Source of the DNA: Parachryseolinea silvisoli
GTDB taxonomy: Bacteria; Bacteroidota; Bacteroidia; Cytophagales; Cyclobacteriaceae
NCBI RefSeq assembly: GCF_021190955.1
Contig: NZ_JAIOAO010000005.1
Coordinates: 310,001-374,000, forward strand
Reading direction: 5' to 3'
Length of the DNA: 64,000 nucleotides
Shown: positions 7,608 through 43,869 of the stretch, one piece after another
Layout: each line of letters begins with the position of its first letter
Numbering within the stretch: the stretch's first letter is position 1
Made by a program: the position numbers and the translations under genes
Notes under the pieces: model-generated
What the model was told of the DNA's origin: nothing
Seen by the model: the letters and a program-made list of their open reading frames with translations, nothing else
Databases searched by the model: none

Positions 7608-7694
7608 GGAGAGATGCCAGAGCGGTTGAACGGGGCGGTCTCGAAAACCGTTATACCTGCAAGGGTATCCAGGGTTCGAATCCCTGTCTCTCCG
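7608..7694 (+). tRNA. tRNA-Ser (anticodon CGA)
   Basis: The acceptor stem GGAGAGA (7608-7614) pairs with TCTCTCC (7687-7693), with G as discriminator. The anticodon stem GCGGT/ACCGT encloses loop CTCGAAA with anticodon CGA, reading UCG serine codons. A long class II variable arm follows, and the T arm has GGTTCGAATCC. CCA is not fully encoded. The gene is the integration target of the neighbouring prophage: the recombinase gene on the other strand ends inside it at 7651. Confidence 0.95.
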
Positions 7695-9210
7695 CAGAAG
7701 CAGACGATGAAGAAATCAAATTCTTTTCGTCTGCTTTTTTGTTTTCTATCTCGTTGTGCATCAAGCAAATTAGTCGCACTGCCTCGTTCACTCTCGGGGT
7801 TCGATATTTTCCGTTCTCAAAAATCAATTTTTCTGGAAATATCGAACCTAACATCAAATCACGGGCTGCCAGGTCTTTTAGCCCTGCATAGAAACTGCCC
7901 AGATCACGGACGATTATTACTGCATGGCGTACGTATTTCTCGAAGTCTTCGAGTGGTGATGATAGCGTTGCTTTCTTCCGGATTAAGTCGTTGATAGTGT
8001 TTTCGAGAGTCGCTTTCATGTCTTTATACTCTGCTACATCAAACTCGCCGTCCAGACGCATTTGCTTCGCGTTTTGGAGGCGTTTCTGGTTACGGGCGAT
8101 CTCTGCATCTATAGCGTCTGTCTCACGTTGGTCGTCGCGTTGATTGGATTGGAACGTGCCCATTAGATACTCTTGAAAAGCTTCGATGGCGGCACCATTG
8201 GGTTTAAAGCCGGAAAGATATTTACGAAATTCTTCGTGTGCTTTGTCGGCTCTGAAACGTTCTCTGCACCCGTGTTGGCAGTGATAATAAAAGTACCGGC
8301 CGCCGCGACCTTTGGACGCACTGCCGGTAAGTAGATTACCACAACGTCGGCATGTCAAATGACCACGGAAGAGTACTTCTTCTTTCGTCGTATTCTTTGT
8401 TGGCCTATTGGGCTTTCGTTCTTGTAGGATGTTTTGTACCTCATAGTATAGGTCTTCACTTATGATCGGTTCGTGTACCGCGCGTGTGTAGTAGGACGGT
8501 TCACCTTTAAAGGCGGGCACGCATACTCTACCGATATACGCATGATTTCGTAATAGTATGTGGAAGGCTGAACGTGCGGAATTAAGTCCTTTCTGATTCA
8601 TCTTACGCCTGAGTTCTTCCACGCCAAAAGCGCCGGTGGCGAACTGCTCAAATGCTTCCCGGACTAAAGGCGCGTGTGTATCGGGAACGATTGTGGCTTT
8701 GCCATCGTCACCCCGTACATTCTTATAGCCCGCAGGCGCTACGTTGGCCCACCGGCCTTCTTTGCGGGCGCGGTAGACGCCGGTGATGACGTTGGCTGAC
8801 CGTCGGTCGTTCTCCACTTCCGGAGCCGCCAAGTAGAAAGCCAGCATCATTTTGTTCTCGGGAATGCTGAGGTCCAGCGGTTGTTCGACAGCCTGCGGTT
8901 CTACGTTCAGTTTTTTGAGCGTGGCGAGCATTGCGTACGAGTCGGTGGCGTTCCGGGAAAAGCGACTCCAGTTGGTGAACAATAGTAAATCCACTTCGCC
9001 AGGATGCTTCTTGGCGAAGTGTAAAAACTTTTGAAATGCTGGCCGAACGAATGTCTTCGCGGAGTGGTCGTCTTGGTAGTGGGCGACAACGGTAAAATTA
9101 TTTGCTTCACAGTACTTTCGTAGTCGCTCTTCTTGATACGGAAGACTGTAGCCACGATCAGCCTGATCGTCTGTCGATACGCGGGTGTAAATTATTGCCC
9201 TTCTTTTCAT
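7651..9210 (-). CDS. Large serine recombinase (prophage integrase)
   Basis: A 519-residue site-specific recombinase that should integrate and excise the prophage. The N-terminal resolvase domain has the nucleophile Ser in YTRVSTDDQADRGYS (about residue 12) and LLLFTNWSRFSRN. It is followed by a Recombinase domain (about 160-270), a zinc ribbon with C..C (LTCRRCGNLL) and CQHGC, and a coiled-coil region (about 350-430). The last residues, AERQGFEPWIPLQV, are read from the tRNA-Ser T arm and acceptor, and the stop also lies in the tRNA, so the present C-terminus is host-encoded. Start ATG at 9210, overlapping the upstream small gene by 53 bp. Confidence 0.95.
   Translation of the reverse strand: MKRRAIIYTRVSTDDQADRGYSLPYQEERLRKYCEANNFTVVAHYQDDHSAKTFVRPAFQKFLHFAKKHPGEVDLLLFTNWSRFSRNATDSYAMLATLKKLNVEPQAVEQPLDLSIPENKMMLAFYLAAPEVENDRRSANVITGVYRARKEGRWANVAPAGYKNVRGDDGKATIVPDTHAPLVREAFEQFATGAFGVEELRRKMNQKGLNSARSAFHILLRNHAYIGRVCVPAFKGEPSYYTRAVHEPIISEDLYYEVQNILQERKPNRPTKNTTKEEVLFRGHLTCRRCGNLLTGSASKGRGGRYFYYHCQHGCRERFRADKAHEEFRKYLSGFKPNGAAIEAFQEYLMGTFQSNQRDDQRETDAIDAEIARNQKRLQNAKQMRLDGEFDVAEYKDMKATLENTINDLIRKKATLSSPLEDFEKYVRHAVIIVRDLGSFYAGLKDLAARDLMLGSIFPEKLIFENGKYRTPRVNEAVRLICLMHNEIENKKADEKNLISSSSASAERQGFEPWIPLQV
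7679..7696 (+). repeat. attL core: tRNA 3' end repeated at 44016-44033
   Basis: The 18 bases AATCCCTGTCTCTCCGCA (T-arm and acceptor 3' strand) recur without mismatch at 44016-44033. A direct copy of a tRNA 3' end about 36 kb downstream is the usual mark of an island inserted at that tRNA. Confidence 0.65.
7699..7741 (+). terminator. Rho-independent terminator for tRNA-Ser, nested in the recombinase gene
   Basis: AGCAGACGA (7699-7707) pairs with TCGTCTGCT (7727-7735), extended by AAGAA/TTCTT inside, and is followed by a T run. On the + strand it is a good intrinsic terminator just behind the tRNA. On the - strand the same bases encode part of the recombinase C-terminus (KKADEKNLISSSSASAER). 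It belongs to the prophage side of the junction, so the element seems to bring a terminator for the tRNA it enters. Confidence 0.7.
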
Positions 9211-9391
9211 CCTCTTTCTGCTTTAGGTATGACTTATACTCTGCCCTGGCCATCACCGAGAGGAAATTATGGATTATCGTAATTTCTTCTTTAGAAAAAT
9301 GATAGCCGTGTTTGGCAAATATTTCTCTGCATCTTTCCTCACTGACCATACCCATTGCATCAAATAGTGCACCTAACCTCTCGACTGACAA
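9158..9391 (-). CDS. Small conserved protein upstream of serine recombinase
   Basis: A 77-residue helical, charged protein (MVSEERCREIFAKHGYHF, SKEEITIIHNFLSVMARAEY). Its 3' end overlaps the first 53 bp of the recombinase gene in another frame, a strong sign of coupled expression. Small proteins with this type of sequence are, to my memory, common immediately upstream of Bacteroidota serine recombinases, so a helper or directionality role is possible. No DNA-binding motif is certain. Confidence 0.7.
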   Translation of the reverse strand: MSVERLGALFDAMGMVSEERCREIFAKHGYHFSKEEITIIHNFLSVMARAEYKSYLKQKEDEKKGNNLHPRIDRRSG

Positions 9392-9410
9392 ATTTACAAG
9401 CTACTGATAA

Positions 9411-9890
9411 TCAGCGCTTCTTCCGGCTATTGACCAGTACCGGACCGAGTTTCTCACTAATCTTCTCGAGAGAACGGCCCGCCACGTACCCACCCACGCC
9501 CAACTCCATCAGGTTCCAAATGCGTTCGTCCAGGACGGTCAGGGGCAAGTGGAGGTAGGGCACCAGCACGTAATTGTTGAAGATGATGAACATACAAATC
9601 ACCATTAGCATCGGGCGCCAGTTACGTTGTAGCCAGCTTTCGCCTTTTGCTTCTGAGTCTATAATTTTCGTCTGGCTATCGAGTAGCTTGTTTTCATAGT
9701 TCAGATATGAACCTTCAATCTCCATGAGCAACTGTTTGTACTTTAGTTGCAGTTCAAGTTTCTCATCTGATTTGTCGATTTTGTCTATGGCGGTGCCAAT
9801 AGAGTCTATTGTTGCCTTTGCTCCGGAGCCCAGAATTTTAGACAAAAAACCTCCTATGCCCGGGCCGCCGCCCGCACTTGTCGTTTCCAT
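9411..9890 (-). CDS. Holin, 3-TM family (GTA_holin_3TM-like)
   Basis: A 159-residue protein. A glycine-rich start is followed by an amphipathic helical region (about 25-85, KIDKSDEKLELQLKYKQLL), then the conserved block WLQRNWRPMLMVICMFIIF with a hydrophobic hairpin and ELGVGGYVAGRSLEKI at the end. This order and the NWRP motif fit the 3-TM holin family of prophages and gene transfer agents, which makes inner-membrane holes for endolysin release. It sits in the early, leftward block, far from the endolysin at 26.6 kb. It ends 20 bp before the 77-aa gene and follows the methyltransferase fusion by 22 bp, so it is in the same transcription unit. Confidence 0.8.
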   Translation of the reverse strand: METTSAGGGPGIGGFLSKILGSGAKATIDSIGTAIDKIDKSDEKLELQLKYKQLLMEIEGSYLNYENKLLDSQTKIIDSEAKGESWLQRNWRPMLMVICMFIIFNNYVLVPYLHLPLTVLDERIWNLMELGVGGYVAGRSLEKISEKLGPVLVNSRKKR

Positions 9891-9912
9891 GATATAATAG
9901 TTTAGTGATTAT

Positions 9913-11865
9913 TTATATTGTCTGGCCTGGCAGGGCCTTCATATCAAAGTATGTGAAGAAGTCCAGCATGCCTTTTACACCGTACCTACTTCGGTATATT
10001 TTAATCGTACCGTTCGCTACTTCTCCGGCAATCTGTATCTCGTGCTCCCAATCTTTGCCACCCCGATAGTCGCCATCTTTCGTGTGTTGGAGCACGAGGA
10101 TAAATGCGGTATTGGGATGCGCTACCTTTAACGCCTTGAAATCGTCGAGTTTCAATTTCAAATCGTTAATGGAATCCAGGATAACAACACTGTAACCGGT
10201 AATGTCTGTACCTCGCAAGGATGCGGCGAATTCCAGATTTGTAGGGCGTGGGTTTAGCAGCTCTTTCACTTTTTGTGTGAACGTGACCGACTCAAATTCC
10301 TCCGACGATATGTACATGACTTTCCCGAAGTTGATTGCCAGGTATTCCGCCAGCTTTAGGAGTAGGCTAGTTTTACCTGCGCCGGGCTCACCATGTAGCA
10401 TGAGCGTAAAATTTCTCGCGGGAGTTCCGAGCAGCGAGCGCCACGGATCAGTGAAGTGCAACATTTCAAATGTTCGATTGGCCATTTGCTCTGCTGTCAG
10501 TACTCCATTTAATCCTTGGTTATGGGAGCAAGTTCCGTTTCCCCGAGCGTCCGAATATGTATTGTTAAGACACTTACGAGTGCCCTTTTTGCGTCCCCCA
10601 TAGATGCGGCCAATATCCTGCTCGCGTGAACATGGTTCCTGTGCTCCGCCGTTGACTATTCCGGTCATACGAGTCAGGTCTTTTTTGTTAATGGCAAAGC
10701 GTTCGTTGCCTTTCATCCTCTGAAAGACGCTGATAAGCTTGTCCTGAATAAGATCGATCTCGTTGGCATACGGCGATGCCTTCCGGATTAGCTTCTTGTC
10801 AATGGCGCTTTGCAGGTCTTTGATAAACGATAGAATGGCGGCTGGCGATTTCGTTGTGTTATGCAGGGCGATATACCGTTTTATAAACCGTATTTCCTGC
10901 ACATGATTTTCCAGCAGGGCACCTACCGGTTCAGCCTGAGTTACGTCATCGACTGTCTCGGCCTCCTGAATTTCGGTGACGGCTTGTATCGGAATGACCG
11001 GCCCTACGGTCTGCCCGCCAGACACAAGCCGTTGGGCTATCGCCTGGACCACCGGAACGCTCACTGCGTTGCCGAGCATCTTGTACCGTTGGCTATCGGA
11101 GATTTCGATGACCTGTCCTTCAATCAGGCCATAACGCGTCCAGTCGTCGGGAAAGCCCTGGAGGCGTTCACACTCCGTAGGCGTTAGCTTGCGCGCGTTT
11201 ACTGGCTTGTTCTTTTCCATTGCGTCAGTGATGTAAGTGCCGATGTTGGGGGTGCCGGTATAGAAAGCAACTACCGCTCCCGCCACCGGGCGAGTTTCCA
11301 CTCCAGAAGCCGGGAAATCACTTTCCTGGAAAGGAAAAACTTGGCGCGCGGGTTCTCCTCTAAGATGTCCGACAAAGTACACACGCTCGCGATTTTGGGG
11401 TAGAAACCAGCGAGTATTAAGCAGTTGCCATTCACAGTCATATAGCCCAAGGTCGGCAACCGCTTTAAGTACGATTTCAAAGTCTTTTCCTCCGTTACTG
11501 GAGAGAAGCCCTTTGACATTTTCAAAGACAAAAACACAAGGTTGGTGTTGTCTGATAATTCTAATTGCCTCAAAAAAGAGGCCGCTTCGTGATCCTTCAA
11601 GTCCCGCCCTTCCTCCAGCCACTGAAAGATCTTGACAAGGGAATCCGAAGGTGATGATGTCGGGGTGTTCGATCCCCCCGGTAATGGTTTCAACTGGTCC
11701 TGCATACGTTGCGTCGTTAAAGTTGTGCGAATAGTTAGCAATGGCGTATTTATCCACCTCGCTGAAGTAGTGCTTCCTGAAAGTATACCCGGCTTCCAGG
11801 AGGCCCTTAGCAAAACCACCTATTCCACTGAATAGGTCTAGCAGTACAATACCCGTTGCTTTCAT
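9913..11865 (-). CDS. DNA cytosine C5-methyltransferase fused to RecA-like ATPase
   Basis: A 650-residue two-part protein. Residues 1-285 form a C5-cytosine methyltransferase: SAM motif DLFSGIGGFAKGL (10-22), catalytic PCQ (76-78) in FGFPCQDLSVAGGR, ENV (115-117) and the C-terminal LGNAVSVPVVQAIA. The target recognition region is short. After a helical linker (about 320-470) comes a RecA/RadA/DnaB-like ATPase with Walker A GEPGAGKTS (about 490), a sensor-like stretch MYISSEEF, and Walker B YSVVILDSIND. The first half probably modifies phage DNA. The second half could serve replication or another DNA transaction. No other helicase or packaging ATPase is seen in the prophage. The fusion is unbroken in frame. 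Confidence 0.85.
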   Translation of the reverse strand: MKATGIVLLDLFSGIGGFAKGLLEAGYTFRKHYFSEVDKYAIANYSHNFNDATYAGPVETITGGIEHPDIITFGFPCQDLSVAGGRAGLEGSRSGLFFEAIRIIRQHQPCVFVFENVKGLLSSNGGKDFEIVLKAVADLGLYDCEWQLLNTRWFLPQNRERVYFVGHLRGEPARQVFPFQESDFPASGVETRPVAGAVVAFYTGTPNIGTYITDAMEKNKPVNARKLTPTECERLQGFPDDWTRYGLIEGQVIEISDSQRYKMLGNAVSVPVVQAIAQRLVSGGQTVGPVIPIQAVTEIQEAETVDDVTQAEPVGALLENHVQEIRFIKRYIALHNTTKSPAAILSFIKDLQSAIDKKLIRKASPYANEIDLIQDKLISVFQRMKGNERFAINKKDLTRMTGIVNGGAQEPCSREQDIGRIYGGRKKGTRKCLNNTYSDARGNGTCSHNQGLNGVLTAEQMANRTFEMLHFTDPWRSLLGTPARNFTLMLHGEPGAGKTSLLLKLAEYLAINFGKVMYISSEEFESVTFTQKVKELLNPRPTNLEFAASLRGTDITGYSVVILDSINDLKLKLDDFKALKVAHPNTAFILVLQHTKDGDYRGGKDWEHEIQIAGEVANGTIKIYRSRYGVKGMLDFFTYFDMKALPGQTI

Positions 11866-11915
11866 ATTTCAAAAAGGCCGTCTGGCCATTTGATTTTATG
11901 AAAGATATATTCACC

Positions 11916-12055
11916 GTATTGCGTATGTATCGACTTTCAAGATCAATTGCAGACAAATGCAATCTTTGATATGATTTTGCCGATACTCATAGGTGGTATA
12001 ATAGGATCAATACAGTATTGAGTCGCTATCACGCGAGTATTGTACTCCTGTATTG
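11916..12055. promoter_or_regulatory. Upstream region with repeated GTATTG sites
   Basis: The 209-bp gap before the methyltransferase gene carries GTATTG four times (11916, 12015, 12037, 12050). One copy lies within the perfect inverted repeat GAGTA-TTG-TACTC (12035-12047). Repeated short motifs upstream of an early phage gene suggest operator or iteron sites. Function is not shown. Confidence 0.35.
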
Positions 12056-12074
12056 TGTTGGAAAAACTGACTTA

Positions 12075-12308
12075 CTACCTGCGGTCTTTATCGCCCTTGT
12101 AGCCTGTGGGAAAGATTACATCAACTTCTGATGGCGGACCAATTAGGTCAACGATAATGATGACTTGATTTACGGAAAAGAAGTTTCCGTTACGCGGGCC
12201 AATCTGCTTTAGAAAAGGTTTTAGCTGGTTTTTGATGGTCCGATACGATACTCCATACAATGCACACAAATCCTTGTAAGTGCACATTTTCACTCTCCAG
12301 GTATTCAT
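12075..12308 (-). CDS. Small helix-turn-helix protein
   Basis: A 77-residue protein whose central part (YKDLCALYGVSYRTIKNQL) reads as a helix-turn-helix, followed by IGPRNGNFFSVNQVIIIVDLIG. This is the style of small phage or mobile-element DNA-binding proteins of Bacteroidota that resemble excisionases or MerR-type fragments. Start ATG at 12308. It is isolated by 209 and 592 bp of non-coding DNA on its two sides, so it probably has its own promoter and may act on the GTATTG sites next to it (inference). Confidence 0.7.
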   Translation of the reverse strand: MNTWRVKMCTYKDLCALYGVSYRTIKNQLKPFLKQIGPRNGNFFSVNQVIIIVDLIGPPSEVDVIFPTGYKGDKDRR

Positions 12309-12900
12309 ACTTGTAAAAAAAATATATGTGACTAATAACTAAGTATTCCCCAGTGAAATCGATTCGGAACGTGCGCGCTAACGGTCTTTTATCAACAGCA
12401 CTTACCTGATGCGCAGCGGCTCTGTTTCGTATCTTTTTAAGATTCTAACGATGGTTTTTTATTTAAGTCACATCATCGGAATGTTTCAGCTTGTTCTTTC
12501 ATATTATGAATCATAAGAGAGGGTTATTTCACATTTGTGCATTCTTTTTCGATAGTCTTACCGTTCTGTCAATTAATTAAACAACTGTGACCATCGTTAG
12601 GGCTACCCGGTATAATAATGTTATTTGGTATAACGGTATACCCATCCTGAAAATGTATCTTATATCAAAATATATTTTCAAATAGAGCAATATACCGGCC
12701 AGAATAGGCGAGGAATGAATTATTGAAGCAAAATTGAGAACCTGTGGGTGGGCTAACCGTTAAAGGCGCAAATGTCTATACTTGAACCTATTTCATCTTT
12801 TTTTAACTCCCTACAACTTTTTCCTGCTTGCTCCTGTCTAAACGTCTGTGCCCCACCCGGTCAGCGGATGAGGTCACAAGGAGGACGTGAGTCGGTATTA
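12309..12900. other. AT-rich prophage intergenic region, candidate control or origin region
   Basis: No protein-like frame was found on either strand. The stretch is AT-rich and contains clustered GGTATA repeats around 12608-12642 (GGTATAATAATG, GGTATAACGGTATACCC). Together with its position between early genes this would suit an origin or an operator region, but nothing definite can be assigned. Confidence 0.4.
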
Positions 12901-13365
12901 TTACGAACGAATGAGCAAAAACGCGTCGAGAATCAGGTTTCGAAGCACCTTGATTTCACCCCGGAGCCGGGGCTTCGTTTTACGCGTGTCCACCTTAACA
13001 ACCCTGTCGATTGTACGCGTGATTAATGCCAAAACTTCTCGCAATTCCAAGGTGTATTTCATTTTCGCCATAAATCTGGTTGAATAAAGCCGGCGGCCGG
13101 ATGTGGCAGGGGCTTTGGGCGAGATGTACTTAGTTCCGGAGCCGTTAGGTGCGATTTTTAGTTCTTCTTCCATATCACGAAGCAGATACAAAATGTAGCG
13201 GCCCTCTCGGGTAAATTGTCTTACCAACTTACGGGAGTCGACTGTCGTAAAGTCCTCGGAGCAATCAATCAACTCGAACAGAATTCGCTTCAATGTAAAC
13301 GTGTATTGTATTTCTGACGAATCCGAATCCAAGGTCCAATCTAATACTGGCGATTCTGGCTTCAT
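12901..13365 (-). CDS. Hypothetical early prophage protein
   Basis: A 154-residue basic protein, mostly helical by composition, without TM segment or known motif. Its start overlaps the end of the upstream XRE gene by 4 bp (13362-13365), so it is translated as part of the regulatory block. The C-terminal half is rich in Lys and Arg (TRKTKPRLRGEIKVLRNLIL), consistent with nucleic-acid contact. Not recognised. Confidence 0.65.
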   Translation of the reverse strand: MKPESPVLDWTLDSDSSEIQYTFTLKRILFELIDCSEDFTTVDSRKLVRQFTREGRYILYLLRDMEEELKIAPNGSGTKYISPKAPATSGRRLYSTRFMAKMKYTLELREVLALITRTIDRVVKVDTRKTKPRLRGEIKVLRNLILDAFLLIRS

Positions 13366-13655
13366 CTGCTTTGGCGTTCAGTTTCCTCTTGGTTGGACTT
13401 GTAGTCATTGGCGACATTGGCTATCGCTCGGCTATTGGAACCTATGTTGTAGATTACAACTCCAGTGCATTCGGTGGCAACATTCCCGGTGTCCGATTTG
13501 AAAAGCCTTGCTAGCGTCTCGGCTTGTTGTTCGCTCATTTCGTGCGGGCCTGTTTCAATTTCCTTATATTCCTGTTCAGATATGCAAAGAAGATGGGCGA
13601 GTTCATTTCTCTGATAGCCGTGCAGATTTCTTTGGGTTTGTAGTAGCAGATTCAT
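13362..13655 (-). CDS. XRE-type helix-turn-helix regulator
   Basis: A 97-residue protein with an N-terminal HTH_3 domain: QRNELAHLLCISEQEYKEIE matches the Cro/CI helix-turn-helix, followed by MSEQQAETLARLF. The C-terminal 40 residues are of unknown role. It overlaps the SymE-like gene upstream by 53 bp and the next gene downstream by 4 bp. Together these form a tight early regulatory operon that diverges from the repressor at 15.07 kb. Confidence 0.75.
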   Translation of the reverse strand: MNLLLQTQRNLHGYQRNELAHLLCISEQEYKEIETGPHEMSEQQAETLARLFKSDTGNVATECTGVVIYNIGSNSRAIANVANDYKSNQEETERQSR

Positions 13656-13923
13656 ATGGGTGAGTTGTTATTTTAACGGGTGATTTGTGATTTTTAAATT
13701 GTTCCTCAATAGCGGCGAGGTTTTCCTGGCGGAATTCTTCAGCACTTTTAGTAACACGCATAATTAGCGTGTGTGGTTCGGGGCTCGTAACAGTGACTTG
13801 ATCTCCGACATGGAAGCCAAAGTCGGTCAGCCAGAATCCCTTTAGCCGCACTAAGGGGAAGCACGTTCGGCAACTGTCCGACCATGCTTTGCTGAGCATA
13901 ATTGTTCGTGACTCTTTTTTCAT
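13603..13923 (-). CDS. SymE-like toxin-domain protein
   Basis: A 106-residue protein. The segment PLVRLKGFWLTDFGFHVGDQ with following VTVTSPEPHTLIMRV fits the SymE domain, an AbrB-like beta fold known from the SOS-induced SymE endoribonuclease toxin. The C-terminal 50 residues are polar and family-variable. Small SymE-like proteins are found in many Bacteroidota phages and plasmids, where their toxicity is untested. It overlaps the downstream XRE gene by 53 bp, which could act as its control partner (inference). No antisense RNA was identified. Confidence 0.65.
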   Translation of the reverse strand: MKKESRTIMLSKAWSDSCRTCFPLVRLKGFWLTDFGFHVGDQVTVTSPEPHTLIMRVTKSAEEFRQENLAAIEEQFKNHKSPVKITTHPYESATTNPKKSARLSEK

Positions 13924-13970
13924 GCTGCTTGGATTGGGGCATTTTACCTATTGTGTTCATGCAGATTATT

Positions 13971-14837: not shown

Positions 14838-14980
14838 AACTTGCGGGGTTTAAGTGGTATTCTGATAGATATTTTATAGCCCCGGCCAGCCGGTCGCGAT
14901 CCAAGCGGCGGGTACGGCAGTGAAGTAAGGTGTATAATATTCGGTGTGCCATGCCCGAAACCCGATGTTTTATGGGAAAA

Positions 14981-15020
14981 GGCCGATAAAATATAGGTTC
15001 AGATGGATAATTTATCGGTC
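14981..15020. promoter_or_regulatory. Inverted repeat in the divergent early/repressor promoter region
   Basis: GGCCGATAAA (14981-14990) and TTTATCGGTC (15011-15020) form a 10-bp inverted repeat with one mismatch and a 20-bp spacer. It lies between the divergent MNT-HEPN gene and the XRE repressor, where an operator for the repressor would be expected. Binding is inferred. Confidence 0.45.
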
Positions 15021-15511: not shown

Positions 15512-15515
15512 GCGA

Positions 15516-32493: not shown

Positions 32494-32495
32494 AT

Positions 32496-35778: not shown

Positions 35779-35844
35779 TATTGGCTTCCGGGGCGTCACC
35801 ATATTTTAATCTTCCGATCCCTCAAAAAATGCCGTTTTCTCGAA

Positions 35845-35866
35845 TAACTACCCGGTACAACAGCCC
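35845..35866 (-). repeat. Partial att-like repeat (copy E)
   Basis: TAACTACCCGGTACAACAGCC matches the left end of the 68-bp repeat at 38467 with one mismatch, but the core half is missing. On the - strand it reads LLYRVVIRENGIF and then a stop, the same frame as in the complete copies. It lies between two cargo genes and marks an old junction. Confidence 0.55.
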
Positions 35867-35896
35867 GAATTAATCAACGAATAAACAATACTTTAC

Positions 35897-36847: not shown

Positions 36848-36875
36848 CGCCTGACCACTGAAACAATTTAAGCAA

Positions 36876-38171
36876 ATGGGACCATTGGTTTTCAAAAAAA
36901 AGTTCGAAGAAATAAAATGGCGGAAACCGGTTTATATCTGGATGTCCGTCGCATTGGGTCCACCCTTTGTTGGGGGAATTTATGCTTTGTTATTCACTGA
37001 TCAGTGGCAACCCGGCCTGTTACTAACCATTTTCCTACCCTTTTTTGCGACCTTCATATACAAGTCCGTTCTGAAAATAGAGACGCGAATCAATAGGTGG
37101 AAAACCTTTAGAATTGTTATCGAGGATGATTCGATTCATCGCGATTTCAATAACGAACCAAGGAAAACCATTCTCAGGTCAGCGATCCATAGTGTTGTAA
37201 ACGAGCGTGGACGCGGAGTAAGAATAAACGGAAAGAACAGCGATGGACTCTGGATACCCTCTGACATGGAGGAGTTTAATACGATCCTGTCAACTATTGA
37301 GTCCGATCTTAGAGCTAATACCGTCACAGAAACGACCGCCAGCAATGAAACCGTTAGCAGCGTTATCGCTGAAGAGCAGCCGCCCGAGTCATTTCCGGTT
37401 TTTATCAAAGTACTTCAGGAAAACTTTACGGGCATCTCGCTTTTCACCACGATTATCATCCTCATTAGCTACATTAAAATCTATTTTTATTTCGGGCTTT
37501 ATGGCATTAACGTGAATAACTACCTTGATGTCTCTGAAATCATATTAGCATTTGGCCCTACAGTGAAGGAACTATTCATATTGATGTTATTATATATTGG
37601 AATCTATCGACTTTTTGAGTTTGTCAAAATTAAAGAGGGACGACCGGAGACTTCCGCGAGAAAACGGTTATCAATCTTTATGATACTCATCATTGTCGGA
37701 TTCGGAATACTTGCCTACTACAAGATACCCGACCTTATCATGACATTTATCTCTGACATCACGGCGTATGCGACTGGCCTTGTTATCCTTCAGATTGTAA
37801 CTGTGGGGATTGCCTTTGCTGTGACGCTTTTCGTTGTATCCTTTTTATATATACATGTCATGGCTACTTTTTCCTCGGGACGTTTGGTCACCATGGCATC
37901 CACAGGCGCTGCACTCCTGGTATCTTTTCTCTTCGTTATTCTTTATGAAAATCAAATCTCCTACGGACTGAACAACGCAGGTCGACCGAAATATTCGGTG
38001 ACATTGATGCTAAATAATCAAGAATCCATTATGTCGAGCAATTCGCTAACGTACATCGGGGGGACGGTAAACTATTACTTCTTCCATGATTTCAAAACAA
38101 AAGAAAATATAATCGTTCCAAAAAATTCGGTAACCAAGGCAAAACAAACGCAACACCGAATTGGGTTATGA
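36876..38171 (+). CDS. Polytopic membrane protein next to Abi_C gene
   Basis: A 431-residue protein. Two TM helices near the N-terminus (WMSVALGPPFVGGIYALLF; LLTIFLPFFATFIYKSVL) are followed by a soluble domain (about 70-170), and then about five TM helices (for example FTTIIILISYIKIYFYFGLY, LSIFMILIIVGFGILAYYKI, LVTMASTGAALLVSFLFVIL) and a short soluble tail. Not recognised. Its place 28 bp behind the Abi_C protein suggests they act together, perhaps as a membrane effector. Confidence 0.6.
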   Translation: MGPLVFKKKFEEIKWRKPVYIWMSVALGPPFVGGIYALLFTDQWQPGLLLTIFLPFFATFIYKSVLKIETRINRWKTFRIVIEDDSIHRDFNNEPRKTILRSAIHSVVNERGRGVRINGKNSDGLWIPSDMEEFNTILSTIESDLRANTVTETTASNETVSSVIAEEQPPESFPVFIKVLQENFTGISLFTTIIILISYIKIYFYFGLYGINVNNYLDVSEIILAFGPTVKELFILMLLYIGIYRLFEFVKIKEGRPETSARKRLSIFMILIIVGFGILAYYKIPDLIMTFISDITAYATGLVILQIVTVGIAFAVTLFVVSFLYIHVMATFSSGRLVTMASTGAALLVSFLFVILYENQISYGLNNAGRPKYSVTLMLNNQESIMSSNSLTYIGGTVNYYFFHDFKTKENIIVPKNSVTKAKQTQHRIGL

Positions 38172-38214
38172 CGATTTAGATCAGTAGTTAATTGCCCAGA
38201 TTACGTTGGTGCGG

Positions 38215-38395
38215 ACTTTGCAATTTGATAAATGTATTGAGATTGGCGCCGTTGACGCCGCCGAACAAGTTCGACAATGAAATACACCTATCTATCGAGC
38301 AGATAGCAGCAATGGAATTACCATGTATTCAACACAACGACCGATCCGAGCATTCTGGCTTAACAATCCTTTCTATGAGCGCGTTACTTCGATAA
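38215..38395 (+). pseudogene. Remnant of a second prophage wall-hydrolase gene
   Basis: Bases here align with about 27230-27390 of the intact gene. The peptide PPNKFDNEIHL parallels VPNKFNDEIHV, and after a frame change FWLNNPFYE parallels FWLNNPLYE. The nucleotide match is also clear (CCGAACAAGTTCGACAATGA against CCCAACAAGTTCAATGATGA). Frameshifts and missing ends make it non-functional. A complete att-like repeat follows within 75 bp, the place where a related prophage would end. Confidence 0.7.
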
Positions 38396-38466
38396 CGGAC
38401 ATTTTAGAAAGCCCGTCGCACAGAGCGAAGAAGCGCCAATTTTGCGTTAAACAGGCATTTTCCTAA

Positions 38467-38534
38467 TAATTACCCGGTACAACAGCCTCAAATCTTCTAC
38501 TAATAGGTTCGAGATTTTGCCGGTCCTCCCCGCA
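38467..38534 (-). repeat. att-like 68-bp repeat, copy B
   Basis: First of three complete copies (also 40689-40756 and 43802-43869). The right end CTCCCCGCA resembles the tRNA-Ser end CTCTCCGCA. On the - strand the copy is open and reads AGRTGKISNLLVEDLRLLYR, running on to a stop just outside. The phase at GCGGGGAGG equals that of the recombinase at GCGGAGAGA in attL. Confidence 0.7.
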
Positions 38535-38548
38535 TCCAGAATAAAAAA

Positions 38549-38572
38549 AGCACTGAGAAATCAGTGCTTTTT
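38549..38572 (+). terminator. Intrinsic terminator behind att-like copy B
   Basis: AGCACTGA (38549-38556), GAAA tetraloop, TCAGTGCT (38561-38568), then a run of T. It has the same place relative to the att core as the terminator next to the tRNA (7699-7741). Confidence 0.75.
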
Positions 38573-38695
38573 TTGTTTTGAGCAATCTCATAGCGCCTCA
38601 CATCCGTACCATTATATGGTAGACACATTACCTCCCTGCATAGAGTACATCCCGTCACCGGGGATCGATTTCAGCCGACCGGCCTGTTAGCCGTG

Positions 38696-39643
38696 TTAGT
38701 GCGAAAATGCTCCCCCTCCCCACCCCGTACGCCGCAGAAATTGCTCCCAGGTTTGGCTATTGGGGTCCACTTTACGGCTCCATAACCAGTCGCGATCCTT
38801 GCCAAAATAACCATACTCCACGGCGTACTCTACCATACCCAAAATCTCGTTTACTAACAGTTCGTTTGAACCATAGTGCGGGAAATGATGCAGAAACTCC
38901 TGCCGGGTGTAGGCAGGTCTGTACACAGCCTTCTTGCCGGTAACCCGCACAAAGGTATCGACCATTTCCCGCGGTGAAATGATATCGCCAATCACCGGTA
39001 ACGACTTGCCGGAGTATTTATCCGGGTTCGAGAATATCTCCAAAACCGCCGGGCCGGTGGCGGTGAGCGGATCAACAAAGGGCGCGCGAAAGTCGCCGGG
39101 TAAATAAATCGGGAATACAAGTGTATCGCCTTCAACCCGGGGCGTATAAAACTCTGGCAGATTGGTATAAAAAAGCGCCATGTAGACAAACGAACTTGTG
39201 ACGGGAAGCGTGCGGATGTACTCTTCGATATTGCCCTTATCCGTGAAATGGGGTGCAAACTTCTTTCCTTCTGTAATTTTACCAACGTTTTCCAACCCGC
39301 TGAAAATGATGTGGCGAACCCCAGCTTCGACGGCTGCATCTGCCAACTGCTTACCCAACTCGGTCTCGTGCGTTTGCGGCGGGGCAATTCCGGGCGTCAT
39401 TAAAAAAACGCCGCCGGAACCCCGGAACGCTTCTACAAACTCTTTTTTATATCCTACATCGAGCGGCACGCTCACGAGCTCAGCGCCCTGGGTTGCCAGG
39501 CTAAGCGCCGCTGGCGAATCAACGCGCCGGGTAATGCCGCGCACACGATAACGCCCACTCTGTAACAACGTCTGCGCAGTGCTACGGCCCTGTTTGCCCA
39601 AAACTCCCACGATGGTAATGAGCGGCTTATCATTTTGTTTCAT
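38696..39643 (-). CDS. NmrA-like NAD(P)-binding protein
   Basis: A 315-residue Rossmann protein of the NmrA/atypical SDR family. TIVGVLGKQGRSTAQTLLQS is the dinucleotide-binding motif; HIIFSGLENVGKI and FVYMALFYTNLPEFY follow. Such proteins are redox sensors or oxidoreductases, often for quinones. Start ATG at 39643; a TTG at 39670 is less likely. Divergent from an HxlR regulator with an operator-like palindrome between them, the usual layout for a regulator-controlled oxidoreductase. Confidence 0.85.
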   Translation of the reverse strand: MKQNDKPLITIVGVLGKQGRSTAQTLLQSGRYRVRGITRRVDSPAALSLATQGAELVSVPLDVGYKKEFVEAFRGSGGVFLMTPGIAPPQTHETELGKQLADAAVEAGVRHIIFSGLENVGKITEGKKFAPHFTDKGNIEEYIRTLPVTSSFVYMALFYTNLPEFYTPRVEGDTLVFPIYLPGDFRAPFVDPLTATGPAVLEIFSNPDKYSGKSLPVIGDIISPREMVDTFVRVTGKKAVYRPAYTRQEFLHHFPHYGSNELLVNEILGMVEYAVEYGYFGKDRDWLWSRKVDPNSQTWEQFLRRTGWGGGAFSH

Positions 39644-39709
39644 AACTTCGTTTGCATTTAGATCCGACAATATTCACCTGCTTGTACGGCGAGCCCGGAC
39701 AACTATAAA

Positions 39710-39748
39710 AACTATAGTTGCAAAACTATTTTCAGTACCCTACGTTTG
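39710..39748 (+). promoter_or_regulatory. HxlR promoter with palindromic operator
   Basis: TTG (39718-39720) and TACGTTTG (39741-39748, exact TAnnTTTG) are 20 bp apart, a good Bacteroidota promoter for the HxlR gene. The perfect palindrome AACTATAGTT (39710-39719) overlaps the -33 element, and further AACTAT half-sites lie at 39701, 39724 and 39753. It probably serves as the HxlR operator. Confidence 0.6.
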
Positions 39749-39791
39749 CAATAACTATCCAAACCGATAGGTCAAAAAAAAAGCCTCCAGT

Positions 39792-40178
39792 ATGAACACG
39801 GAATGCATTAGCGACCACGTAAAACTGAAAGGAAGGATTTATCCCTGCACGATTAGCCTTACCATGGATTTGGTGGGAGGAAAATGGAAAGCTGTCATTC
39901 TTTACCATTTGAAAGACGAGGCAAAACGGTACAATGAACTTCGCAAAGAAATGACCTCTGTAACCGAAATGACCTTGAGCTTGCAGTTAAAGCAATTAGA
40001 GAAAGACGGACTGGTGGCGCGAAAAGTCTATGGAAGAAAGCCACCCATTAAAGTTGTTTATAGTCTGACGGAGTTTGGTAAGACGTTTGTCCCCGTTTTG
40101 GAGGCGATCACGGCATGGGGCAATCAGGTTGTACTGGATAAAGGTGAACTAGTCTCTGTTGGAAAGCACAAACTTTAA
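39792..40178 (+). CDS. HxlR family transcriptional regulator
   Basis: A 128-residue winged-helix regulator of the HxlR type: CTISLTMDLVGGKWKAVILY, RYNELRKEM, MTLSLQLKQLEKDGLVARKV and YSLTEFGKTFVPVLEAI are the family's conserved blocks. A Cys in YPCTISL is typical for those members that sense quinones or electrophiles. Divergent from the NmrA-like gene it probably represses. Confidence 0.9.
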   Translation: MNTECISDHVKLKGRIYPCTISLTMDLVGGKWKAVILYHLKDEAKRYNELRKEMTSVTEMTLSLQLKQLEKDGLVARKVYGRKPPIKVVYSLTEFGKTFVPVLEAITAWGNQVVLDKGELVSVGKHKL

Positions 40179-40208
40179 ACGTATAGGGCGCACAACACGC
40201 GTCCTCCA

Positions 40209-40572
40209 GCGAGGATATACAACACAACCGTATTACATGGTCTGCAGCTTCTCCAGCACGTCAATAATCGCGGCGATCAGGTTTTGGTCCACGTTACCTT
40301 CGCCGCCCCCGGAAGAAATTACGCGAAACTCACCGTTATCATCTCGTTCAAATTCCAACTCACTGTCATTTACCGTGATGTAAAATTTGTAAACGTAGGT
40401 AAAGGCGGCCAACCGGCCCTTTAGCAACAACTCCTCACCCTTGTAGGTTACGGGCAACTCGAAATAATCTTCCATATTCTGACTAATTATCCAATTCTTA
40501 TCCAAGAAGCTACTTTTTTACCATTTGGTAAATGAATCACTCATTTTAAACCCTATTTTTCAGGATGAAAGC
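40209..40572. repeat. Direct repeat with 80-aa gene, copy 1
   Basis: About 364 bp that recur at 45983-46353 with only scattered differences, covering the 80-aa gene and about 90 bp upstream of it (for example TTACCATTTGGTAAATGAAT against TCACCATTTGGTAAATGAAT). Both copies follow an HxlR gene, in the same direction. Confidence 0.85.
40233..40475 (-). CDS. Conserved 80-aa protein, copy 1
   Basis: An 80-residue protein (MEDYFELPVTYKGEELLLKG ... DVLEKLQTM). It is nearly identical to the protein at 46010-46252; most changes are single substitutions (SELEF/MELEF, SSGGG/SSEGG, NVDQN/NVDRN). Since changes spare the frame, both copies appear to be under selection. Start ATG at 40475. Strand pattern: short beta strands followed by a C-terminal helix. 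Function unknown. Confidence 0.75.
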   Translation of the reverse strand: MEDYFELPVTYKGEELLLKGRLAAFTYVYKFYITVNDSELEFERDDNGEFRVISSGGGEGNVDQNLIAAIIDVLEKLQTM

Positions 40573-40688
40573 GCTTACCGATATTCCTATCGGGAATGCC
40601 AGCTCATTGCTATGCTCGCTGCTAATACATAAGCAGCTTCCTTCAAACCATTACTCCACACGGCCTTTAAATGAACTGTTTTTTTTGT

Positions 40689-40756
40689 TAATCACCCGAT
40701 ACAACAACTTCAAATCCTCCACCAAAATGTTCGATATTTTGCCGGTCCTCTCCGCA
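40689..40756 (-). repeat. att-like 68-bp repeat, copy C
   Basis: On the - strand it is open and reads AERTGKISNILVEDLKLLYR, continuing VINKKN. In this copy the frame is also open on the other side of the core for at least 20 codons (GFDVHSTTHKKACKLLKFAG ...), as if both halves of a recombinase 3' end were still joined. Confidence 0.7.
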
Positions 40757-40762
40757 TAAAGA

Positions 40763-40798
40763 AAGCCTGCAAATTTTAACAGCTTGCAGGCTTTTTTG
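40763..40798 (+). terminator. Intrinsic terminator behind att-like copy C
   Basis: AAGCCTGCAA (40763-40772) pairs with TTGCAGGCTT (40784-40793), followed by T residues. The bases to its right (GTAGTGGAATGGACATCGAA, from 40801) recur at 44063, so this flank is shared with that of the 44016 tRNA-end copy. Confidence 0.75.
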
Positions 40799-40904
40799 TG
40801 GGTAGTGGAATGGACATCGAACCCAGTCTAGCATCAGTTGACGTAAATAATTGGTAATCTTCAGTTTGCTGTCAAGGGAATTGTCCGCACAGGGATGCAT
40901 CGAC

Positions 40905-41828
40905 TTACTGCAAATAATGATTCATTTCATGAATGGCAGCGTAGGCCTGAGTTCGATCGCTCCAATAGTCTAAGTCATCGAAATTAGCAACCACGTATTT
41001 AACGCCTTTGGGGATAGTACTCAATCTTTTGTAGAAGCCAACAACGTCAACTGCTGGTGATGGCAGATGAACCGAATACACATTTGCCGTCCCATCCTGC
41101 TTTGTTAAACGAAATCGAACAAGAAGCGAGACAAATTCTTTCGGTTGCTTCACTACGTACACACCATCAGGCAAATCAAGCCCATCATTAAAATGAACAA
41201 CACCATGATTATCAAGAATAGTCTCGTAAGGGCTTTGAATTTGTGCCCGAATAAAATTGTATTGGGGCTGCATAATCAATCCATAGCCGAACTTATGGAA
41301 TGCTAATAGGTAGGCAATCTTCAATAGATTCGTTCCCACCGCTTTGGTTTTGTCCTTCACCTCAAAATTAAATTGATTCTTTCCTTTGAAAGACTCTATA
41401 AATTTTGTCAAGTCATCATTGTTGCTCAAAGTAAACTTGATAGTGTTAGTATTGAAATCGAACTCAGTTATAGCACCAAACTTATCTTCCCCTGCTTTCA
41501 ACTTCGCCCGCCAGTTGACCACCGTGGAATCTTGCCGATGAGGCACGTAAACGAGTTCCTTATCAAATTCACTAAAAAGATTGTTGCACTTATAACAAGT
41601 CAATACTTCGGTTCTACCTCCTAAGTATTGTGGGGGGACGTGCTCAATTGTCAAGTAATTTTTATCACCACTTCTTTTAATATCAGATTCCTTGAATGTA
41701 TGAAAACAGATTGGACAGATGATAATGTCTTTTAATACATCACGATTATATCGTGGGTTCTCACAAAGCAATTCAATGTTCTTTCGGTAGAGTTTAAATA
41801 AATGCAGTTTACGTTTTGCCTTACCCAT
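40905..41828 (-). CDS. HNH-type nuclease-like protein
   Basis: A 307-residue protein. IICPICFHTFKESDI and VLTCYKCNNLFSEFD give two CxxC pairs that could bind zinc, and YLTIEHVPPQYLGG between them carries the E-H of an HNH motif. The rest (about 110-307) is an unrecognised alpha/beta region. It may be a restriction-type or defence nuclease. It lies between att-like copies C and D, upstream of nothing on its own strand except the AbiE block, from which it is separated by 68 bp. Confidence 0.65.
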   Translation of the reverse strand: MGKAKRKLHLFKLYRKNIELLCENPRYNRDVLKDIIICPICFHTFKESDIKRSGDKNYLTIEHVPPQYLGGRTEVLTCYKCNNLFSEFDKELVYVPHRQDSTVVNWRAKLKAGEDKFGAITEFDFNTNTIKFTLSNNDDLTKFIESFKGKNQFNFEVKDKTKAVGTNLLKIAYLLAFHKFGYGLIMQPQYNFIRAQIQSPYETILDNHGVVHFNDGLDLPDGVYVVKQPKEFVSLLVRFRLTKQDGTANVYSVHLPSPAVDVVGFYKRLSTIPKGVKYVVANFDDLDYWSDRTQAYAAIHEMNHYLQ

Positions 41829-41896
41829 ATATAATTTTCATGGAAGGTTTTATTTTTTTGCGAGTATTGAAATGATGATCGAACCAGGATTACCTC

Positions 41897-42094
41897 TTAT
41901 AGAAGAGTACTTTTATGTTCGTAAACCTTCGTCAGCAAGTCTTTTGCAGGGACCTTCTTCACCTCTCCATTTATCGAAATAACCAACGATCCTCCGCTGG
42001 CTACAGTTTCCTCTACTAATTTGCGTGTTGCGTCATTCATCGCCTGCAGTATGCTGTTAAAAAACTCAGTCAATTCCGGTCTATTTGGCTCCAT
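41897..42094 (-). CDS. Small hypothetical protein behind abiEii
   Basis: A 65-residue protein (FFNSILQAMNDATRKLVEET, SLVISINGEVKKVPAKDLL), helix followed by beta hairpin and helix. It begins 21 bp after the AbiEii stop on the same strand, so it is likely co-transcribed. Not recognised. Confidence 0.5.
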   Translation of the reverse strand: MEPNRPELTEFFNSILQAMNDATRKLVEETVASGGSLVISINGEVKKVPAKDLLTKVYEHKSTLL

Positions 42095-42115
42095 GCCTAA
42101 TTCGTTAGATATTTC

Positions 42116-43048
42116 TCAATTCCTAATTTCTTCATTTGCAACCCATGGACCGGGCGCAGTCCAGGTATAGTGGGGCTTGTCGCCGGCCAAAATTAGGCCA
42201 ATGACAGGCATGATGAATTTATCGATGCTCGTAACAACCTCTTCAAACGATTCAGGGATGTATTCCTGGTCTAGTTTCTTCCGAAATGCCTGCCACTGTA
42301 ACTGCTTCAATGTGATGAATTCCTTTCTGAACGAACCGATCGCTGCCGGTATTTCTGTCTCACGATTTTTAAAAGTTAGTTGGATAGCATTTGCTAAGTC
42401 ACCTGCGGTGAAGTCGGAAGCACGGGAGAGGAAGTAAATATCGTAAAAGTCTTTCATCCGGCTATTCGCATCACCGAGATAGACTAGTGCTTGTAGTTTT
42501 TCAGCTATAGCACTCTCCCGGCTGTAGCAAAGCAATTCCGCAGGTGGAAAGTCAAGCATGGCCGGTAACCTGTGTTTCGTCGGTGCGGGATAGACAATAT
42601 CTCCAAAACCAATATCTATCTGCATGGAGATTCTTGCGTTATCCAGTTTGCCTGTAAATTTCACACGTACGCCCTGATAGTCGGCGTCCTCCGTAATTCT
42701 TTCCACTTTGACCGTCTCGGTTGAAAAGATAAACCCATCTTGTTCTATCTCCACGGCCATCACTTCCTGTACGATAGCTGTGATAGATTCTAAGTCGTTG
42801 CTAGTATCCTTGGCCAGCATGTCGATATCCCTGGTTGCACGTTGCTCGCTAACATCCCAGACGCGAAGCATCAATGCTCCTTTCAAAACGAAATGATTTG
42901 CACTTCTCGAGTTCGACCAACGATAGAGGAACCGATCCATAGCGGCATATTGCAACAACTCATCGAACGGCCGTTTGTCTTTTCGAGCCTGCTGCAATAG
43001 TCGCTCACGAACTGATGCCGCCTTGTTTTTAATAGGCTTACTACTCAT
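42116..43048 (-). CDS. AbiEii/AbiGii-type nucleotidyltransferase toxin
   Basis: A 310-residue protein of the type IV toxin family. HFVLKGALMLRVWD followed by RATRDIDMLAKD holds the nucleotidyltransferase motif (G...D-x-D), and ESAIAEKLQALVYLGDANSR and MKDFYDIYFLSR are the usual later blocks. AbiEii inactivates tRNA by NTP transfer. It overlaps the antitoxin gene by 4 bp. Confidence 0.9.
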   Translation of the reverse strand: MSSKPIKNKAASVRERLLQQARKDKRPFDELLQYAAMDRFLYRWSNSRSANHFVLKGALMLRVWDVSEQRATRDIDMLAKDTSNDLESITAIVQEVMAVEIEQDGFIFSTETVKVERITEDADYQGVRVKFTGKLDNARISMQIDIGFGDIVYPAPTKHRLPAMLDFPPAELLCYSRESAIAEKLQALVYLGDANSRMKDFYDIYFLSRASDFTAGDLANAIQLTFKNRETEIPAAIGSFRKEFITLKQLQWQAFRKKLDQEYIPESFEEVVTSIDKFIMPVIGLILAGDKPHYTWTAPGPWVANEEIRN

Positions 43049-43647
43049 ACTAGAGATTGGATATACGGTCGCATAACATTTGAAACACGGCAGACATCAG
43101 CATAGTGGGTAATCATTTTCATATTCAGCTTTTTTCTTGATCGGTACAGTTTCAGTGCTTCCAGTACCACGTCCATACCTATTTGATTGCGAAATTTAAA
43201 ACAATCCGCCAGTGTTTTTTCGGCACTGTATATTTTAGTCTCGATACCATCTATAATATGCAATTCGATTCCCTCGTGATAAGCGTTACCTGAAAATCGA
43301 TACACGGCCAGGGGCGGATATTCAAGCTGTGGAGCTCTGGTTGATCGCTCAATAGCGATGTGTATTTTATGGGGAATTTGCGTTGTCATGTCATGAAACG
43401 ACAGTGCTGAGATCAGGCAAACCACCGCGTTCGGAACTCGTGTGGCAACTATAAAAAGATCCGGGCTGGAGAGTTCACTTTCTGTAAGACGATAGACGCC
43501 GCGGGAAGAGAGTTCCAGCTTCCCTTTCTGAACGAGTGCGCTAAGGGTACGCGATTGAATGCCTGCAGCGGTTGCCGTCTTAGTTCGAATCATACCCCCA
43601 TGTCGGCGGATAATCGAGAGTGCCATGTCTGCTATAGCTTCCTTCAT
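43045..43647 (-). CDS. AbiEi-type antitoxin
   Basis: A 200-residue protein. The N-terminal winged helix (GGMIRTKTATAAGIQSRTLS, ALVQKGKLELSSRGVYRL) is the AbiEi_4-type DNA-binding domain; the C-terminal part (CLISALSFHDMTTQIPHKIH, KIYSAEKTLADCFKFRNQIG) is the antitoxin domain. It is first in the operon and should repress it by binding upstream, as known for AbiE systems. Confidence 0.9.
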   Translation of the reverse strand: MKEAIADMALSIIRRHGGMIRTKTATAAGIQSRTLSALVQKGKLELSSRGVYRLTESELSSPDLFIVATRVPNAVVCLISALSFHDMTTQIPHKIHIAIERSTRAPQLEYPPLAVYRFSGNAYHEGIELHIIDGIETKIYSAEKTLADCFKFRNQIGMDVVLEALKLYRSRKKLNMKMITHYADVCRVSNVMRPYIQSLV

Positions 43648-43801
43648 GATTTAATATGTTATCACTTATTAACAAATGTAAACAAATTAGATCAAAATCT
43701 ATTCCATTCAATCAGGAGCTCGTTGAGCCCAAATCTGTACATCGGGACACGTGCGAGCGCCAAAATCCTCCTAAATGCCCTCTAAACAAGGTTTTTCCCG
43801 A
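43648..43801. promoter_or_regulatory. Upstream region of the AbiE operon
   Basis: The 154 bp between abiEi and att-like copy D should contain the operon promoter. The sequence next to copy D resembles the flank of copies B and C (CTAAACAAGGTTTTTCCCG), so the region may be part of the same old element end. No precise site seen. Confidence 0.3.
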
Positions 43802-43869
43802 TAGTCACCCGATACAGCAGCCTCAAATCCCCTACCAAACGGTTCGAGATTTTGCCAGTCCTCCCCGCC
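43802..43869 (-). repeat. att-like 68-bp repeat, copy D
   Basis: On the - strand it reads AGRTGKISNRLVGDLRLLYR and then VTIGKNLV and a stop. The three complete copies differ at many bases but keep the same open frame and the peptide core RTGKISN-LV-DL-LLYRV, evidence that the stretch was selected as coding sequence. Confidence 0.7.

Follow-up and report, generated by a model that had tools for sequence, protein, structure and literature searches.

The left part of the window, a 64,000-nucleotide (nt) stretch of the genome of Parachryseolinea silvisoli (contig NZ_JAIOAO010000005.1, positions 310,001 to 374,000), holds a tRNA-Ser(CGA) gene and, running into it on the opposite strand, the gene of a large serine recombinase, which we interpret as the integrase of a mobile element that probably exchanges the C-terminus of this enzyme upon integration (Table 1). 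The recombinase has the domain order of its class (Resolvase, Recombinase, zinc ribbon); in Pfam, PF00239 (92.6 bits) and PF07508 (42.6 bits) scored above the cut-off and the zinc ribbon PF13408 just below it (22.2 bits vs. 25.3). A structure search with the family profile placed the A118 integrase among the solved relatives. The protein ends in SSASAERQGFEPWIPLQV, and its final 15 codons lie in frame and in antisense within the tRNA gene, as the first-pass annotation of this DNA had proposed.

Table 1. Features at the two sides of the putative element (window coordinates).
Feature	Position	Strand	Basis and remarks
Target gene tRNA-Ser(CGA)	7608..7695	+	ARAGORN; 3' part in antisense is the current recombinase C-terminus (translation)
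Large serine recombinase, 519 amino acids	7651..9210	-	Pfam; Resolvase and Recombinase domains, zinc ribbon below cut-off
tRNA-encoded tail AERQGFEPWIPLQV and stop, integrated state	7651..7695	-	translation
Probable crossover core GCGG (minus strand), left border, in recombinase frame	7692..7695	.	identical to 38530-38533
Hairpin and T run within last codons of recombinase body; terminator-like, supplied to the tRNA by the element	7698..7741	+	sequence
Partial tail, LLYRV-like distal part only, core lost	35836..35883	-	repeat family D3, translation
Tail 1 (AGRTGKISNLLVEDLRLLYRVIIRKMPV) with stop codon 38447-38449; the present prophage probably ends here on the right (P half)	38450..38533	-	translation and repeat family; assigned by position only
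CTCGAAC motif in P half, 5 nt farther from core than the tRNA T-loop TTCGAAC	38507..38513	-	sequence
Tail 2 (AERTGKISNILVEDLKLLYRVINKK...); an older, decayed element probably ended here on the right	40672..40755	-	translation and repeat family
Tail 3 (AGRTGKISNRLVGDLRLLYRVTIGKNLV) with stop codon 43782-43784; an older element probably ended here on the right, beside native chromosome	43785..43868	-	translation, repeats, flank alignment
Hairpin resembling a terminator; probably belongs to the native flank of tRNA-Ser(CGA)	43875..43899	+	similar flank in G002

At the right side of the window the diverged repeats at 38467, 40689 and 43802 form one family (D2) over 93 nt, two copies being 72% and 77% identical to the reference copy. 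The earlier claim that these repeats encode another tail in the same phase held on translation: read on the minus strand from the core GCG, they give tails 1 to 3 in the phase of the recombinase. A partial copy, noted near 35845, has kept the distal part of the peptide. A separate small protein starting at the core was ruled out, as the window copies have no ATG, GTG or TTG between the core and the SN residues. The flank past tail 3 aligns with the region downstream of the tRNA-Ser(CGA) of G002, a genome of the same genus (L270 1315-1509 to window 44033-43860, 70%), and tail 3 is therefore probably the oldest right border. For tail 1 (38533), its position and a like tail (VGLTGKISNQIYQDLKLLHRLF) in a 55%-identical relative in G071 suggest that it belongs to the present prophage.

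The T arm of the window tRNA-Ser(CGA) (7665-7695, CAGGGTTCGAATCCCTG) matches the tRNA-Ser(GGA) genes read in the genus and not the tRNA-Ser(CGA) of G002 (GAGGGTTCGAATCCCTC). Beyond tail 3 lies a displaced 3' fragment of tRNA-Ser (44016-44085), with a flank like that of the genome's own tRNA-Ser(GGA) (L274), and the flank after tail 2 (40749-40824) is of the same kind. From this fragment and the two flanks, the array looks like a mosaic built from two tRNA-Ser sites.

A tRNA-encoded end turned out to be a habit of the recombinase family. Relatives were gathered from whole genomes, genome contigs and viral contigs, one of these listings being the best 80 of 314, and 111 of the 115 loci entered a survey of ends; L008, L011, L015 and L030 were excluded as partial or distant (L008 and L011 both end in antisense tRNA), and with one duplicate set apart 110 distinct primary recombinases remained. 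In 86 of these, the window's included, ARAGORN detected an antisense tRNA at the end of the recombinase, with 25 anticodon kinds in all, and the remainder had a tRNA-like tail (10), stood at a contig end (3), matched a loose SN pattern (6, of which 4 truly terminal) or ended otherwise (5). The apparent SN tails of L035 and L082 were rejected as accidental pattern matches, since their SN lies inside the recombinase body. A second, class-wide sample, with a relative at E 1e-80 or better in 46 of 295 genomes, contributed 26 of 30 loci (L276, L280, L288 and L293 had already been seen); here 22 recombinases ended in antisense tRNA, three were tRNA-like and one carried an SN tail like those of the window, below called a P tail.

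The tRNA part is entered in the same frame in 83 scorable recombinases; four residues before GxEP, 78 of them have V, 4 have A and 1 has R. On the opposite strand of the codons before the core, a terminator-like hairpin followed by a T run was present in 81 of these 83. When the sequences were shuffled ten times it appeared in 0-2 of 83, and four windows taken farther upstream in these genes had it in 0, 0, 0 and 5. Because of this difference, the element seems to furnish the tRNA with a new terminator; the window hairpin was unlisted by a terminator consensus scan, whose loop limit is 8. Two further peculiarities were seen among the relatives. In tRNA-Lys(ttt) elements (L066, L081, L088, L089, L091, L095, L109 and similar loci) a second serine recombinase, 40-41% identical to the window's and ending in ...LR(N/D)R(M/I) rather than in tRNA, stands about 3.3 kb before the main one, and in the viral contig L112 (IMGVR_UViG_3300006033_001290) a tRNA-Leu-like end is followed by two further near-copies of it within about 200 nt.

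The place of the attachment site of the element (attP) relative to the recombinase gene can be judged from an element in G053, which sits in tRNA-Lys and has a tail at its far end. In G167, of the same genus, the empty tRNA-Lys runs directly into the flank beyond the G053 tail (49 nt at 88%), and this empty site fixes the borders of the element. Since a GTGA core bounds it on both sides, the recombinase body must run into the tail in frame in the circle. All 10 pairs of integrase and tail share at least four identical nt from the core codon (identical run 4-8 nt; core words GCGG, GTCG, GTGA, GTAC or GTTG by pair), whereas random pairings of the core words matched as well in 10 of 200,000 draws. 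A core this short between the left and right junctions (attL and attR) is typical of large serine recombinases.

For serine integrases a zinc-domain motif 5 bp nearer the centre in the bacterial site (attB) than in attP is described in the accessible part of PMC3783163, and a shift of this kind was found here. In 9 of the 10 pairs the script placed the T-loop motif of the tRNA 5 nt closer to the core than its counterpart in the tail-bearing half of attP (the P half); in the tenth (G166) TTTGAAC was seen by eye at the same place, the script value of -28 being due to its T loop reading TTTGAAC. Both motif distances follow from our rules for placing the core (four residues before GxEP, seven codons before SN), so that the real test is the identity of the core together with the empty site. 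We infer that the zinc domain binds the T-loop-like motif, and recognition of the T loop would account for the use of 25 tRNA anticodon kinds by one family in our sample. The Islander signature, which is tyrosine-type and has an attP tRNA fragment that rebuilds the gene, is absent, as the P half and the tRNA have in common only the 4-8 nt core and the T-loop-like motif at another distance.

The first-pass annotation had named a peptide without a match at the end of any recombinase as the result that would overturn its proposal, and such ends were found. The recombinase L106 of Flagellimonas pelagia (G157) ends in VTSRGHSSNFLKEDIEIIIKESFHIRSA and not in tRNA, and a DNA search with its tail stretch gave four more copies in the same genome, 84-90% identical, with peptide and stop kept and no recombinase directly before them. 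The integrative and conjugative element (ICE) beside L106 (G157:C33 46148 to about 105330) matches an ICE that is present in G163 as a single copy in tRNA-Arg(tct), at 97.5% over the first 39 kb and 81-97% in further pieces. The right end of both reads VNDMVQNSNQLIEDLKLLADILAA and a stop; it follows a terminator-like flank in G163 and is fused in frame to the next serine recombinase in G157. By this arrangement G157:C33 is a tandem array in which the tail is supplied by the neighbour.

In-frame fusions of a recombinase body to an SN tail occur in two genes of G157:C33, and likewise in G159:C183, in G283:C1 and in G164:C8, where the contig end truncates the gene start. The recombinase of G283, a one-contig genome, ends in VAPRVENSNLLLEDLLDLCPLLGITG and a stop; on the side of the tail, 53 kb off, lies tRNA-Arg(ccg), and 125 nt from that tRNA another serine recombinase has its matched end (26% identity to the query), which makes G283:C1 another tandem array. 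L083 and L077 were not counted as fusions, as their tails deviate (L077 has only NSNLIT). The L083 tail nevertheless forms one row of both tail profiles used below, and when its DNA was searched for in 11 genomes, the results were the tail itself, a single 32-nt repeat (E 1e-9) and otherwise only matches with E above 0.01.

A profile of 10 tails gave matches at E 10 or better in 28 of 29 genomes, several of them below 1e-8 in genomes outside the profile, some of these being copies of the same ICE. The tails found in this way share SN-x-(L/F)-x-x-D-L-x-x-L and often have a terminator-like flank just before the core, and of 26 distinct tails 20 have V and 4 have A at the core codon, which precedes SN by seven codons. 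When the matches that share a contig with a listed recombinase and lie at most 150 kb from it were classified, 17 pairs (from 16 hits, of which one belongs to the model) had the predicted side and strand, none had the predicted side and the other strand, two had the wrong side on the same strand, and one was wrong on both. A profile of 26 tails in 42 further genomes gave 22 pairs of predicted side and strand (19 hits, 13 recombinases) and 1, 5 and 0 in the other classes. Both counts were made from manually compiled lists and cover only tail hits on contigs with a listed recombinase; the first did not include the hits in G157, the G000:C9 model hits, the recombinases of G146, G149, G152 and G155, and the weaker ones of G078, G159 and G160.

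A cluster of tails was seen in L338 (G283:C1 4530001-4550000), where four copies share a strand within 14 kb. The 30 kb covered there (L338, L339) contain neither a recombinase match nor a tRNA, and three of the four copies are directly preceded by the palindrome-like GGAAATAAC..GTT(A/C)TTTCC. Judging from this layout, the cluster may be either a graveyard of elements or a passive array.

That the peptide is better conserved than the bases was claimed from the window copies, which by themselves give only a modest signal: in codons 10-22 synonymous and nonsynonymous differences number 7/2, 6/3 and 3/5, and codons 23-28 differ mostly by nonsynonymous changes. With relatives the claim became clear. 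We used 36 of 41 collected tails, those with SN at codons 8-9, and the invariance of SN in them is hence a result of the selection. Over 12 tail pairs, codons 10 to the end showed 66 synonymous and 97 nonsynonymous changes as compared to 119.3 nonsynonymous expected (standard deviation, sd, 4.2), and 0 of 3000 draws were as low. Codons 1-9, which form the attachment half-site, had 44 vs. 45.7 expected (P 0.26), two shifted frames of the same tail DNA showed no deficit (121.8 vs. 112.4 and 129.5 vs. 119.2 expected), and neither did the DNA past the tail stops (P 0.90 and 0.43). Since a profile search could favour conserved peptides, the test was repeated with 8 strong-scoring pairs (55.8 vs. 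71.8 expected, sd 3.7; 0 of 4000 draws as low) and with 4 pairs alike at the DNA level (30.3 vs. 40.3 expected, sd 2.8, P 0.001), one of which uses L194, first found by profile and later seen to be alike in DNA. Codons 14, 15 and 18 are nearly or fully fixed at the second base, and 15 and 18 vary at the third. The tails beyond the attachment half-site are thus under protein-level selection, in the named frame only and not after the stops.

Taken together, the positions of the tails, the selection on them, the fusions and the empty site support the proposal that attP lies inside the integrase gene (int) and that the C-terminus is exchanged on integration. The window would then hold the integrated form of an element whose attP is in the 3' end of its own int, with crossover on the short core (4-8 nt alike) in the final codons of the body. 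On the P' side the int codons would double as a terminator-like hairpin able to serve the occupied tRNA, and on the P side would follow the in-frame tail, about 20-30 amino acids in most copies, with its SN-x-(L/F)-x-x-D-L-x-x-L motif and own stop. The predicted attB is the 3' end of a tRNA gene, the TTCGAAC of the T loop lying 5 bp nearer the core than the P-half motif. Integration would strip the tail from int and substitute an antisense tRNA peptide, xxxG(F/L/I)EP..., and a second element entering between the tRNA and the first would re-tail the resident int with its P half.

As to what the exchange may do, a single integrated copy makes only the tRNA-tailed enzyme, so excision must be carried out by this form, and integration would be the work of the P-tailed enzyme of the circle; integration itself would in this manner reset the enzyme. 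The tRNA-derived tails vary in length and sequence and seem to be tolerated, and on the simplest reading the P tail would serve integration, or prevent a wrong reaction of the free element. An integration-phase and an excision-phase enzyme may thus be separate, which is the leading idea and follows from the anatomy of the element. AlphaFold2 on L106 with 18 sequences (mean pLDDT, the predicted local distance difference test, 78.8) placed a helix at residues 511-525 in the tail, which may be a flexible linker with a short helix; in the free (and tandem) enzyme such a tail would act as a module favouring or permitting recombination of attP with attB. As a whole, we consider it probable that attP lies inside the 3' end of int, that integration swaps the C-terminus and that the tail is a predicted module of the free or tandem enzyme favouring integration. 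A further step is tentative and in our view rather doubtful, namely that the DNA joint serves as a memory of state, with the P-tailed enzyme adapted to attP x attB, the tRNA-tailed enzyme to excision together with its directionality factor, and newcomers in arrays re-arming the resident integrase with their own tail, even at about 25% integrase identity.

Several observations weigh against the exchange of a functional tail. Over both position counts 9 pairs fell in a wrong class, one of these being on the predicted side but the other strand, and two of the five wrong-side pairs of the 42-genome count lie about 0.65 kb from the matched end of the recombinase, unfused. The ends and charges of the tails differ much among lineages; basicity is not family-wide (e.g. 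VNDMVQNSNQLIEDLKLLADILAA), and the 'long basic tail' of the first-pass annotation had to be given up as a general property. Tails from the new genomes gave 12.5 nonsynonymous changes vs. 11.8 expected, with only 2 usable pairs. In the L106 model, residues 483-529 have pLDDT below 50 and the predicted template modelling score (pTM) of the whole is 0.39. Two degenerate tail patterns gave no match in viral contigs, no free circle or read data were seen, and an SN tail was present in none of 7 viral contigs with a relative, of which L111, L112, L245 and L246 have tRNA-like ends, L113 is cut at the core, and L114 and L115 have short other ends. No overlap of the contig ends was found in L248 and L249.

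Could the tail act through the stability of the protein? The free-form integrase would then be short-lived (or long-lived) and integration would remove the tag, as with the repressor of mycobacteriophage BPs, for which an attP-dependent ssrA-like tag is described alongside a proteolysis signal on the integrase (PMC4557955, accessible part). Several tails do end in small residues (LAA, TA, SA), but the window tails end in ...MPV, ...NLV and ...RVE and others in KN, LY, FP or NRQ, and conservation is strongest in the inner SN..DL..L and not in the final residues, which makes such a tag unlikely. Selection might also act chiefly in tandem arrays, where the tail restores the integrase of the resident, and not in the free circle. 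The fusions with resolvable context are indeed in arrays (G157, G283) and the window holds three P halves behind one tRNA, yet many tails stand at right borders beside a terminator-like flank and not a recombinase, and a donor tail must traverse the free state before it joins an array; we give this possibility only a small chance.

The coding test bears on the idea that the repeats are conserved as DNA only, as an arm of attP with a functionless peptide. The attachment half-site in codons 1-9 gives no coding signal, which speaks for this idea, but the signal from codon 10 to the end is strong, is lost in the shifted frames and after the stop, and is accompanied by second-base fixation at codons 14, 15 and 18 with third-base variation at 15 and 18, so we find it very improbable. 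Finally, attP could lie elsewhere, the 68-bp repeats being a separate repeated cassette, which would suit the three copies within 5.4 kb of the window and the P halves at 4.53-4.55 Mb of G283:C1, which have no recombinase close by. The empty site and both borders of the G053 element, and the border of the same ICE at the tail in G157 and in G163, speak against a separate cassette and leave it hardly any probability.

The nearest parallel to an attP inside int is the Myxococcus phage Mx8, whose attP is within int and where integration gives a new int 3' end with changed specificity (PMC6070905, accessible part); the accessible part of PMC4383910 names the Mx8 and SSV integrases as extending across attP. 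Like Mx8 (and Mx9), the element of the window would have attP within the sequence that codes for its integrase and would acquire a new 3' end of int when it integrates, as deduced here from the empty-site borders, the in-phase tails and the fusions. PMC4383910, in that part, concerns tyrosine integrases only, whereas the window recombinase has serine recombinase domains and its tail, handed on within tandem arrays, is conserved among numerous lineages and kinds of tRNA; the enzyme resembles Mx8 Int in having attP within its own gene but does not belong to that type. In BPs, attP is in the repressor coding sequence and the prophage protein has another C-terminus (PMC4557955, same part). BPs changes its repressor by truncation, while here the core lies in the recombinase frame and the end of the integrase is replaced by a tRNA-encoded peptide, unlike integration-dependent immunity.

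What we could consult of PMC4383910 states, as of 2014, that no integrases other than those of the tyrosine type were known to use tRNA genes as targets, and PMC3218068, likewise in part, calls serine recombinases at tRNA genes rare, with phiRSM1 of Ralstonia and mycobacterial AICEs (actinomycete ICEs) at tRNA-Leu as cases. These resemble the element of the window in having a serine recombinase with attB at a tRNA gene, but phiRSM1 has a small resolvase-like enzyme and a core between ORF14 and ORF15 (PMC3816273, accessible part), outside the recombinase gene and not inside it as here. The large serine integrases of the A118/LI type share the domain order, the short core and the zinc-domain motif 5 bp nearer the centre in attB (PMC3783163), although no attP inside int and no tRNA target is described for them in the portions of PMC3783163 and PMC3556126 available. 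Our literature search, with subscription papers mostly outside it, turned up neither a large serine integrase described as carrying attP within its own gene nor a description of the SN tail. Many Bacteroidota recombinase ends of the form ...G(F/L)EP... are antisense tRNA, and the native tail is absent from the gene as sequenced. The one-way control of serine integrases is a central question in phage biology and genome engineering, and an enzyme pair that differs only in a C-terminal tail exchanged by recombination would make a protein-level contribution to directionality directly testable.

The remaining genes of the window include, near the recombinase, a cytosine methylase with an AAA part (9913-11865). 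Blocks 38696-40527 and 44600-46304 are similarly ordered: each has a copy of a 300-nt direct repeat (D1; 95% identity, 5777 nt apart) that adjoins a pair of open reading frames, in the same pair order in both blocks. Between tails 2 and 3, at 42116-43647, lies an AbiEii/AbiEi-type pair.

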